Origin: Limosilactobacillus caviae | GTDB taxonomy: Bacteria > Bacillota > Bacilli > Lactobacillales > Lactobacillaceae | Direction: 5' to 3' | NCBI RefSeq assembly: GCF_014635905.1 | Contig: NZ_BMDS01000003.1 | Span: 62,001 to 126,000 of the forward strand | DNA length: 64,000 nucleotides | Shown: positions 15,213 through 22,370 of the stretch, piece after piece | Layout of the letters: each line of letters begins with the position of its first letter | Numbering within the stretch: position 1 is the first letter of the stretch | The notes under the pieces: generated by a model | Seen by the model: only the letters and a program-made list of their open reading frames with translations | The model's database searches: none | Told to the model about the DNA's origin: nothing | Translations under genes and position numbers: made by a program

Positions 15213-17033
15213 ATGTGTGGAATTGTTGGAGTTACTGGAACTGACAAGAGTTTGTCAATTCTAATTGATGGATTAAAGCGTCTTGAATATCGTGGATATG
15301 ACTCTGCCGGTGTTTATGTTAATGATCAGCAGGGACATGATTACCTAGTTAAGCGTCCAGGTCGGATTGCCAATTTAGAGGCTGCACTTGGCGATGAAGT
15401 ACACGGTTTAGCAGGTATCGGTCATACACGGTGGGCTACTCATGGTGAACCAAATGAGGCTAATGCTCACCCACAGTATTCACAAGACGAGCGATTCTAC
15501 TTAGTTCACAACGGTGTAATTGAAAATTATGCTGATTTAAAGAAAGAATACTTATCCGATGTAAAATTTGTTAGTCAAACTGATACAGAAGTAATTGTTC
15601 AGTTAGTTGATAAATTTGTTGTTGAATCTGGAATGACTACCGAAGCCGCTTTGCTTAAGGTATTACGTTTAATTAGTCCTGATTCATCATATGCATTTGT
15701 ATTAATGGATAAGGAACAACCAGATACATTATTTGTTGCTAAAAATAAGAGTCCATTGTTGGTCGGTATTGCTGACGGTTATAATATGGTCGGTTCAGAT
15801 GCAATGTCGATGATCAAGGAAACTAATACTTTCATGGAAATTGGCGATCATGAACTAGTAATCGTTAAGCCGGATCATGTTACTGTTAAAGATTTTGATG
15901 GCAATGAGATCGAGCGGCCAACATTTAAGGTTGATATGGATGCTAATGCAGCGGATAAAGGTACCTACCCATACTACATGCTTAAGGAAATCGATGAACA
16001 ACCAGCTGTTATGCGGAAATTAGTTCAAGAGTACTTTGGTGATAATGATGTAGCAAAAATTGATGAAAAGATGCTTAAGGACATGGCCGAAGCTGACCAC
16101 TTATACATTGTCGGCGCAGGGACGAGTTATCATGCAGGACTTGTTGGTGCGCGGATCTTTGAAAAGCTTTGCGGTATTCCTACTTCTGTTCATATTTCAT
16201 CAGAGTTTGCTTATGAACAACCACTTCTTTCTAAGAAGCCATTCTTTATCTTCTTAAGCCAAAGTGGTGAAACAGCAGATAGTCGTGAAGTACTTGTTAA
16301 CGTAAATAAGCATAATTGGCCAAGTCTAACTATTACTAACGTTGATAAATCAACACTTTCTCGTGAAGCAACTTATACTGAATTGCTTTACGCAGGCCCA
16401 GAAATCGCCGTGGCTTCAACTAAGGCGTATACTGCACAAATTGCGGTTGAAGCAATTCTTGCACAAGCATTAGGAGTATACATGGGCAAGCAAGCTGCGA
16501 AGGACTTTGATGTTAAACATCAATTAGGATTAGTGGCTAATGGTATGCAATCAATCACTGATAGCAAGAAGAAGATTGAAGAAATTGCTTCCCGTTATCT
16601 TTCAAAGGTACCTAATGCCTTCTACATTGGTCGTGGAATGGATTGGTCAGTTTCACTCGAAGCAGCGTTGAAGTTAAAGGAAATTTCATATGTTCAAGCT
16701 GAAGGATTTGCTTCTGGAGAATTAAAGCATGGAACAATTGCATTAATTGAAGACCATACTCCGGTTATTGCTATTATTACTCAAGATCGGACTGCAGGGT
16801 TGACTCGTAGCAATCTTGAAGAAACACAAGCTCGTGGTGCAAGTGCTATTACAATTGTTTCTCGGCACCTTGCACAAGAAGATGATACTTTCGTTCTTCC
16901 AGATGTTGATGAAGTGCTGACCCCATTATTGAGTGTTATTCCTGCACAATTATTAGCTTACTATACTAGTCTTGGCAAAGGCCTTGATGTTGATAAGCCA
17001 CGTAACTTAGCTAAGTCTGTTACAGTTCAATAA
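15213..17033 (+). CDS. glmS: Glutamine--fructose-6-phosphate aminotransferase
   Basis: Makes GlcN-6-P from Fru-6-P and Gln, the first step toward amino-sugar polymers. The N-terminal nucleophile is Cys of MCGIVGV. The glutaminase domain (GHTRWATHGEPN) runs to about residue 240. Two SIS domains follow (GAGTSYHAGLVGARIFE and FYIGRGMDWSVSLEAALKLK). The protein ends in the classic DKPRNLAKSVTVQ-type tail, so the length of 606 is complete. It has its own promoter and leader. I found no glmS ribozyme core in the 200-base upstream gap. Confidence 0.98.
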   Translation: MCGIVGVTGTDKSLSILIDGLKRLEYRGYDSAGVYVNDQQGHDYLVKRPGRIANLEAALGDEVHGLAGIGHTRWATHGEPNEANAHPQYSQDERFYLVHNGVIENYADLKKEYLSDVKFVSQTDTEVIVQLVDKFVVESGMTTEAALLKVLRLISPDSSYAFVLMDKEQPDTLFVAKNKSPLLVGIADGYNMVGSDAMSMIKETNTFMEIGDHELVIVKPDHVTVKDFDGNEIERPTFKVDMDANAADKGTYPYYMLKEIDEQPAVMRKLVQEYFGDNDVAKIDEKMLKDMAEADHLYIVGAGTSYHAGLVGARIFEKLCGIPTSVHISSEFAYEQPLLSKKPFFIFLSQSGETADSREVLVNVNKHNWPSLTITNVDKSTLSREATYTELLYAGPEIAVASTKAYTAQIAVEAILAQALGVYMGKQAAKDFDVKHQLGLVANGMQSITDSKKKIEEIASRYLSKVPNAFYIGRGMDWSVSLEAALKLKEISYVQAEGFASGELKHGTIALIEDHTPVIAIITQDRTAGLTRSNLEETQARGASAITIVSRHLAQEDDTFVLPDVDEVLTPLLSVIPAQLLAYYTSLGKGLDVDKPRNLAKSVTVQ

Positions 17034-17142: not shown

Positions 17143-17171
17143 TTGACTTATATTGTTGAAACCGCTATCAT
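17143..17171 (+). promoter_or_regulatory. Promoter overlapped by a perfect cre site
   Basis: TTGACT (17143-17148), a 17-base spacer, and TATCAT (17166-17171). TGAAACCGCTATCA at 17157-17170 matches the CcpA cre consensus TGNAANCGNWNNCA at every fixed position and covers the spacer and -10, an arrangement expected for repression. Confidence 0.7.
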
Positions 17172-17176
17172 AATAA

Positions 17177-17259
17177 GTGCAAGGTATTAAGTAATTACCT
17201 TCTAATCAATTCTCTTTCTCTCTTATGCCAATCATCGTCGTTTAGACGGTGATTTTTTT
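17177..17259 (+). ncRNA. Candidate CcpA-controlled small RNA, about 80 nt
   Basis: A predicted start near 17177 and a textbook terminator at 17230-17259 (AATCATCGTC, loop GTTTA, GACGGTGATT, T-run) bound a transcript of about 80 nt with no open reading frame. Its single-stranded middle is very pyrimidine-rich (TCTCTTTCTCTCTTATGCC), able in principle to pair with G-rich ribosome sites. CcpA-repressed, C/U-rich small RNAs such as staphylococcal RsaI follow the same design. The alternative is an attenuated leader for the gene at 17304. Confidence 0.55.
17230..17259 (+). terminator. Terminator of the candidate small RNA
   Basis: Ten-pair stem AATCATCGTC/GACGGTGATT with a GTTTA loop and a T-run. 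Confidence 0.9.
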
Positions 17260-17303
17260 GTTTAAACTCGCTATAATGGTAGGGTTGAAAGGGGAAGAAG
17301 AAC

Positions 17304-17615
17304 GTGGAAGAGCAACACGAAACGTTAACATTAATTGAGGAAATTACCCGTAATGATGGCTCAAAATATTATGAAATTGGTAATATGGTGCAAAACGGAC
17401 GGGCAGAGTTAGCAGCTGAGCGTCACTTTATTAAAGAAGTACGAATTCTAGAGTTAAATATTCCTCATTCAAAAAATGTTATTAAATACGAACACTTTAT
17501 AAACACCCATTACAAGATGCAGGACGAATCAATGGATCATTGGGAAGAGTGGAAACGACCACCCGAAATTGAGGAAATTGTTCAGGTAATCTTAAAAGAA
17601 AATCATGTTGGATAA
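17304..17615 (+). CDS. Hypothetical protein, 103 residues
   Basis: I do not recognise this protein. It is small, acidic and soluble, with no signal peptide or membrane segment. It begins LTLIEEITRNDGSKYYEIG and ends EIEEIVQVILKENHVG. A GTG start at 17304 follows AAAGGGGAAG at good spacing, and TATAAT at 17272-17277 could serve as its own promoter just after the small-RNA terminator. It is followed by 90 bases and then the acyltransferase gene. Confidence 0.7.
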   Translation: MEEQHETLTLIEEITRNDGSKYYEIGNMVQNGRAELAAERHFIKEVRILELNIPHSKNVIKYEHFINTHYKMQDESMDHWEEWKRPPEIEEIVQVILKENHVG

Positions 17616-21876: not shown

Positions 21877-22247
21877 GGGGATGTTTATGGATTCGACAGG
21901 TATAGGTCGAGTTTCAACTGCGTTTCGAAGGTTGCGTCTTCGTAAAAACGCTCAGTTTTAAATTATAACTGCAAACAATAATTCAAACGCATACGCATAC
22001 GCTGCCTAACAAGTAGCGCGCGTAGATCCATTCCGGGTTCGTCCATGATGCGGTAATGGGTTTTATACTTAGTGGACTACGCTTATTACTCCCGTTTGAA
22101 GTAATAAGAAGAGATTAATCAAACTAGCTAATCATGGTTGCCCTGATCAACGGCGTTTTGGTTAGCGAAGTTTAAATAGTTGAGATATGAACGTAGAGGT
22201 TGAAATGGCGATATGCTTGGACACGGGTTCGACTCCCGTCATCTCCA
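21877..22247 (+). ncRNA. ssrA: Transfer-messenger RNA (tmRNA)
   Basis: The 5' end GGGGATGTTTATGGATTCGA and the 3' end GGTTCGACTCCCGTCATCTCC form the tRNA-like domain, with GGGGATG pairing to CATCTCC. CCA is not encoded. The tag reading frame at 21971-22009 is GCA AAC AAT AAT TCA AAC, then GCA TAC GCA TAC GCT GCC TAA, giving ANNNSNAYAYAA. It works with SmpB, encoded near the window start, and with RNase R. The 3' half of such genes is a common integration site; no integrase or duplicated 3' end is seen here. Confidence 0.97.
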
Positions 22248-22370
22248 TTATGAGTTTGCGGCTAATTGCAAACAGTGTTAAAAGCCCGAGATAATGGGAT
22301 TTAGGGAAATACAAAATTTAATGAAAAGCATTGAATTGCATTTAAATGTTGTATAGAATTTGAATATTAT

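Follow-up and report, generated by a model that had tools for sequence, protein, structure and literature searches.

The Limosilactobacillus caviae DNA analysed here, a stretch of 64,000 nucleotides referred to as the window, very probably carries a real, family-wide small RNA (sRNA) gene with conserved CcpA sites. Sequence and comparison together establish that this predicted RNA has a sigma-A-type promoter of its own in which a cre is fused to one of the hexamers. They also establish a conserved 5′ hairpin, a C/U-rich core that is unpaired and invariant, and a terminator that covaries. We consider it likely that the locus is a stand-alone sRNA gene of Lactobacillaceae that acts in trans and is repressed by CcpA. 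Its features are located in the window as follows.

15213–17033: upstream gene read as glmS (SIS and glutamine amidotransferase domains)
17143–17148, + strand: −35 box TTGACT of the predicted sRNA promoter, assigned from sequence; a TTGA-type −35 recurs in the family
17157–17170, + strand: cre TGAAACCGCTATCA, whose final bases lie inside the −10 box (offset 14 from the −35 start)
17166–17171, + strand: −10 box TATCAT, after a 17-nt spacer from the −35 box
17178–17260, + strand: predicted sRNA transcript, about 83 nt, with the start placed from the −10 box and uncertain by a few nucleotides
17181–17201, + strand: 5′ hairpin AAGGUA/UACCUU, from the fold
17205–17223, + strand: unpaired core of 19 nt, AUCAAUUCUCUUUCUCUCU, presumed to mediate pairing, from conservation and fold
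17224–17229, + strand: UAUGCC, a 3′ extension of the core conserved in most named loci
17230–17260, + strand: intrinsic terminator and U tract; stem of 10 pairs at 17230–17254, four of them G-C, followed by a T run
17249–17277, + strand: promoter-like signals of the 103-aa gene, GTGATT-17-TATAAT, with the −35 inside the sRNA terminator
17304–17615, + strand: gene for a 103-aa protein, the syntenic downstream neighbour, not judged part of the RNA

By itself the promoter is unexceptional, since 28 promoter-like sites are found compared to 23.2 in shuffles of 7 kb. The cre at 17157–17170 is the sole strict match to TGWAANCGNTWNCA in the 64-kb window, where 0.23 such matches are expected by chance anywhere, and its position inside the promoter is therefore unlikely to be accidental. 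In the fold of the predicted RNA (−17.8 kcal/mol, z −4.1), the 5′ hairpin and the terminator flank a C/U-rich middle that is left single-stranded, and none of 200 shuffles folded equally well. No + strand frame of 30 or more codons lies within the predicted sRNA, and a search of Rfam 15 returned nothing near gathering score (7 matches up to E 10). An earlier sequence-only reading of this region had proposed a TTGACT-17-TATCAT promoter, a perfect cre over its spacer and −10 box, a ten-pair terminator, and a short transcript that lacks a reading frame and has an unpaired C/U-rich middle; each of these elements is borne out at the positions listed, with the transcript length defined by sequence signals and the unpaired middle by the computed fold. 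Elsewhere in the window, a tmRNA gene is present at 21877–22250 (Rfam RF00023).

A BLAST search with the 221-bp region matched 30 of 56 relatives, all of them among the 33 genus genomes searched, and did not find the sRNA in the remaining 3 of these 33. A covariance model was built from 29 of the 30 BLAST loci, with L029 omitted as masked. This model matches 185 of 396 Lactobacillaceae genomes representing 15 of 40 genera, with one match per listed genome; the sRNA was not found in the other 211 genomes under stricter filters by which weak matches are lost. In an order-wide sample, 32 of 395 genomes match the model, and all 32 belong to Lactobacillaceae. When 84,980 species were scanned for the exact core, at least 80 stretches were obtained, 77 of which fit the covariance model and come from at least 14 named genera, and the three of the 80 that do not fit are, among the matches listed, the three from outside the family. 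The genera among the matches listed are Limosilactobacillus, Levilactobacillus, Ligilactobacillus, Lentilactobacillus, Secundilactobacillus, Lactiplantibacillus, Loigolactobacillus, Furfurilactobacillus, Paucilactobacillus, Latilactobacillus, Liquorilactobacillus, Pediococcus, Periweissella and Dellaglioa, together with unclassified Lactobacillaceae. The sequence-only reading had called for a covariance search of this kind and had tied its claim to conservation of promoter and terminator in relatives; the model finds the RNA in 15 of 40 genera, and both elements are conserved.

Every one of the 115 loci that were picked by BLAST or by the model without an exact-core filter, which represent 84 distinct contexts, carries the core AUCAAUUCUCUUUCUCUCU unchanged, and the core is also exact in two of the weakest listed model matches (G059 and G098, E about 1e-4). 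Core and extension form an intact 25-nt block in 65 of the 77 named loci among the matches listed; the UAUGCC extension is replaced in others, for example L063–L065 and L085. All 77 named loci among the matches listed have a 5′ hairpin of at least four pairs and a terminator hairpin, and in 68 of them at least 17 of the 19 core nucleotides are unpaired in the minimum-energy fold, as counted in a window shifted by two bases. In the model-fitted alignment 98.0% of cells pair, and 12 of the 16 pairs have changed on both sides, including all ten terminator pairs and two of the six pairs of the 5′ hairpin. These covariation values were reached by none of 500 shuffles, in an alignment that itself leans towards structure. 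The longest open reading frame per locus has a median of 5 codons and a maximum of 26 (77 named loci among the matches listed), and the model matches range from 79 to 116 nt.

Promoter architecture was assessed in the 76 named loci having enough upstream sequence. Exactly 17 nucleotides separate the two promoter boxes in 75 of these 76 loci among the matches listed, and a cre (TGNNANCGNTNNCA) lies within the promoter in 71 of the 76, compared to an expectation of 0.001 that derives from 10 same-strand cre sites in 591 kb of flanking sequence of the named loci, or 0.001 per 58-nt stretch. The site occupies two exact registers that differ by 13 bp, and in both it is fused to a hexamer of the promoter. 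In the commoner register (offset 1; 61 loci among the matches listed), the cre starts one nucleotide into the −35 box, such that TTGACA and TGACAGCGCTTACA share bases. In the second (offset 14; 10 loci among the matches listed), the cre ends in the −10 box (TATCA-T). The −10 register is used, among the matches listed, by L. reuteri, seven of ten other Limosilactobacillus, one uncultured relative and Pediococcus argentinicus, and both registers occur within Limosilactobacillus and within Pediococcus. An apparent offset of 0 in L248 is an artefact of a cut upstream end. The exact 13-bp shift and the constant fusion to a promoter box argue that repression at this promoter is itself under selection. 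Repression by CcpA is predicted because of the established action of this protein at cre sites.

The consensus cre is absent from five of the 76 named loci among the matches listed (L216, L235, L247, L251 and L269), most of which retain near-matches. Two loci, L235 from Liquorilactobacillus uvarum and L087, carry two weak cre-like sites in one promoter, one in each register, and such double sites are a possible intermediate in the 13-bp move of the cre. A further locus (L067, from genome G422 of genus g32) has kept the core and terminator, and its promoter, cre and 5′ hairpin arm are unrecognisable; it is possibly a decaying copy. Overall, a separate sRNA under predicted CcpA control is well supported by these comparisons, and the original proposal of a separate small RNA under a CcpA site gains from the retention of the cre in 71 of 76 loci in two hexamer-fused registers.

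GA-rich ribosome-binding regions offer complementarity to the core, and pairing partners were sought in five pattern scans covering 1, 13 or 26 genomes, which revealed no complementary site common to many genera. A scan of the genome of origin for RRGRGRGRRRGRGRR with one mismatch gave 31 places, including the sRNA gene itself, and the control also gave 31; among 29 loci inspected were several ribosome-binding sites with no common theme. In 13 genomes from 12 genera, RRGRGRGRRRGRGRRTT with one mismatch occurs at 32 places, the sole exact match in each genome being the sRNA gene, and no recurring gene was noted when 16 of the 19 other places were inspected by eye. A third scan of the same 13 genomes for RRGRGRRTTGRT shortly before ATG yielded 43 places compared to 21 for the reversed pattern, which is an unfair control for ribosome sites. 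On inspection of 30 of these loci, a zinc-type binding lipoprotein was found to recur in two genera. This protein was sought in 30 genomes (20 with the RNA and 10 without), and 21 starts could be scored (13 and 8, respectively). Only G176 and G251 stand out among them (z −2.4 and −2.8), and the lipoprotein was rejected as a general target.

The fourth scan, for GRGRGRRRGRG before ATG, gave 35 places versus 15 for the control, and the 30 inspected include dltX in genomes G000 and G116. DltA was sought in 80 genomes and matched in 68, which allowed 60 dltX starts to be scored (47 with the RNA and 13 without; 8 were unscored). The mean pairing energy is −12.6 in genomes with the RNA versus −11.0 in those without it (one-sided P 0.10), and z falls below −2 only in G000, G015, G025 and G116 among the 60 scored starts. 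As a general target, dltX likewise failed. In G000 the dltX site GAGAGAAGGAGAATT (L407, G000:C6:126299-126316) would form 15 pairs with the RNA, including one G-U, and ends at the start codon; similar sites are present in G015 and G025. In G116, which belongs to the Latilactobacillus-type genus g42, 13 consecutive nucleotides at dltX (L496) are complementary to the core. The dltX gene of the L. reuteri clade is a fair local candidate for a lineage-specific target.

The last scan, for GAGAAAGAG before ATG in 26 genomes, yielded 80 places versus 38. Among the 70 loci inspected, at least two pairs represent the same place and a few lie inside coding sequence. Relatives paired across genera comprise mraY, rnr, larA and an ABC transporter, of which the larA and ABC-transporter pairs are 93–98% alike and possibly reflect recent transfers. 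Across scans, such pairs also include an ABC-F gene and a small protein of unknown kind. In the mraY-like genes (L555 in G251, L569 in G130) and the RNase R-like genes (L541 in G116, L570 in G110), each pair from two genera, the GAGAAAGAG pattern immediately precedes the start codon, and we regard both as candidate targets. The names DltA, DltX, MraY, RNase R and LarA are readings of translated sequences only. Thus, the search for pairing with ribosome sites that the sequence-only reading had suggested produced lineage-specific candidates and no broadly conserved target, and the retuning of mRNAs by this sRNA is plausible.

These observations would fit the following mechanism. When glucose is present, CcpA together with P-Ser-HPr would bind the cre and block RNA polymerase, and when the preferred sugar is gone the sRNA would accumulate. 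The 5′ hairpin may protect the RNA and present the core, and we infer that the core reduces the translation of several mRNAs by pairing with their purine-rich (GA-rich) ribosome-binding regions. Multiple different targets, partly specific to lineages, could share one core, and such a varied set would explain how the core can be frozen without any single conserved complementary site. An invariant core for which no conserved partner site is found would agree either with many shifting targets or with a protein partner.

Several observations count against a stand-alone gene that acts in trans, namely the failure of the scans to find a target shared by many genera, the family and genus genomes in which the RNA was not found, the steady synteny with the downstream gene, the cre-less loci (five of 76 among the matches listed) and L067. 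In a rival reading, the RNA is the 5′ leader of the 103-aa gene; the terminator would attenuate transcripts started at the cre promoter, and read-through would depend on a factor bound to the core. All 32 loci examined from other genera have the gene downstream in the same orientation, with a variable upstream neighbour, as do 69 of the 77 named loci among the matches listed for the downstream gene; for the other eight among the matches listed, seven sequences end less than 0.8 kb from the RNA and L215 has no such gene within 3.5 kb. However, the gene is present in 393 of 396 genomes and 39 of 40 Lactobacillaceae genera, far more than the RNA, and in all 23 genomes examined from genera without a model-found RNA. 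No degenerate core was seen ahead of it in the 19 of these 23 genomes that were inspected, nor in L191–L196, L199 and L200. The gene also appears to have promoter signals of its own 3′ of the terminator (best score 8.8 versus 6.9 in shuffled sequence, for the 64 of 77 loci in which the gene is 20–220 nt away), and 60 of these 64 among the matches listed have a −10-like hexamer there, versus 22.8 in shuffles. Moreover, the RNA and the gene are 0.9–2.7 kb apart in seven genomes of the Lactiplantibacillus-type genus g55 (G357, G376, G346, G292, G261, G244 and G411), and a pairing that would undo the terminator is not apparent in the computed folds. We therefore find a leader quite unlikely and read the sRNA as an independent unit, because the gene has its own promoter signals, occurs without the RNA and is sometimes located far from it. 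The two units overlap, since the −35-like box of the gene falls within the 3′ arm of the terminator stem, and this layout is repeated in several Limosilactobacillus loci.

Alternatively, the core could be a protein-binding site. In the absence of glucose, the RNA would then titrate or direct an RNA-binding protein, either one of cold-shock or KH type or the product of the syntenic 103-aa gene. A stretch of 19–25 unpaired and nearly invariant nucleotides is more than a seed needs, and the pattern scans found no broadly conserved complementary site, both of which favour such a role. We nevertheless hold it to be unlikely, in that no partner is indicated and the 103-aa protein occurs as well in genera where the RNA was not found. 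This protein is an uncharacterised core protein of Lactobacillaceae that belongs to no Pfam or NCBIfam family. Its AlphaFold model is confident (pLDDT 94.7), and no clear structural relative was found among PDB structures; resembling no solved fold clearly, the model is uninformative on RNA binding. It is very improbable that the sRNA is instead a homologue of RsaI (RsaOG) or RosA, the sRNA-binding RNAs that CcpA represses in staphylococci and bacilli, with which it shares control logic. The Rfam family of RsaOG is absent from the 7 matches obtained up to E 10, none of which is near gathering score, and the GGGG before the terminator is missing in 76 of the 77 named loci among the matches listed. 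Lacking G-tracts and without a matching Rfam family, the RNA is not RsaI.

Returning to a stand-alone, CcpA-repressed gene, a broader proposal is that this is a core sRNA of Lactobacillaceae, of independent origin from RsaI and RosA, which extends carbon catabolite control post-transcriptionally through a frozen 19–25-nt C/U-rich domain that serves many mRNAs or binds a protein partner. We hold this proposal tentatively, giving it close to an even chance. No global RNA regulator of such kind in these bacteria was found in the literature searched. One gene, one site, an invariant core and easily handled organisms make for a ready test system.

As far as could be checked, the sRNA is new as a family, and it is of a kind already known from RosA, RsaI and ArgX. 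No description of it was found in the open PMC literature, a scope that leaves aside subscription papers and supplements, or in Rfam 15, and the letters of the core match nothing in the text of the papers searched. RsaI of Staphylococcus aureus is described as a stand-alone sRNA that is repressed by CcpA, derepressed without glucose, and paired with the Shine-Dalgarno regions of glcU_2 and fn3K (PMC9266662). Two further reports give it two G-rich regions that bind C-rich sRNAs, with RsaE, RsaG and RsaD as partners (PMC8216469, PMC9217828). The control logic is alike, whereas no sequence likeness was found and the G-rich regions are missing from the Lactobacillaceae sRNA, in which GGGG precedes the terminator in one and GGG in nine of the 77 named loci among the matches listed. 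The likeness to RsaI put forward in the sequence-only reading thus holds for the kind of control, predicted repression by CcpA, and fails for the G-rich regions and for any Rfam match.

Similarly, RosA of Bacillus subtilis is a stand-alone CcpA-repressed sRNA of about 229 nt whose three G-rich regions make it a sponge for RoxS and FsrA (PMC8216469). The Lactobacillaceae sRNA resembles it in its predicted CcpA-type control, but is C/U-rich, has model matches of 79–116 nt and is without the G-rich regions of RosA. ArgX of Lactococcus lactis is a CcpA-repressed RNA of 66 nt that has a promoter of its own, carries a predicted cre close to the −10 box, is predicted to pair with a ribosome-binding site and overlaps the argR 3′ UTR; its authors report finding no homologues outside L. 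lactis (PMC6586332). Short length, an own promoter and a cre near the −10 box are common to both RNAs. However, the sRNA described here spans many genera and, rather than overlapping an argR 3′ UTR, is flanked by a gene read as glmS and by the 103-aa gene. SR1 of B. subtilis is described as CcpA-repressed (PMC6586332) and encodes the small protein SR1P, whereas the Lactobacillaceae sRNA has no such frame. By the tests made, the predicted sRNA is related to none of RosA, RsaI and ArgX. If it is expressed as predicted, many lactobacilli would gain an RNA arm of glucose control that stands beside RosA in Bacillus and RsaI in Staphylococcus and is built from a different RNA. Firmicutes would then have evolved the circuit of an sRNA under CcpA repression more than once.
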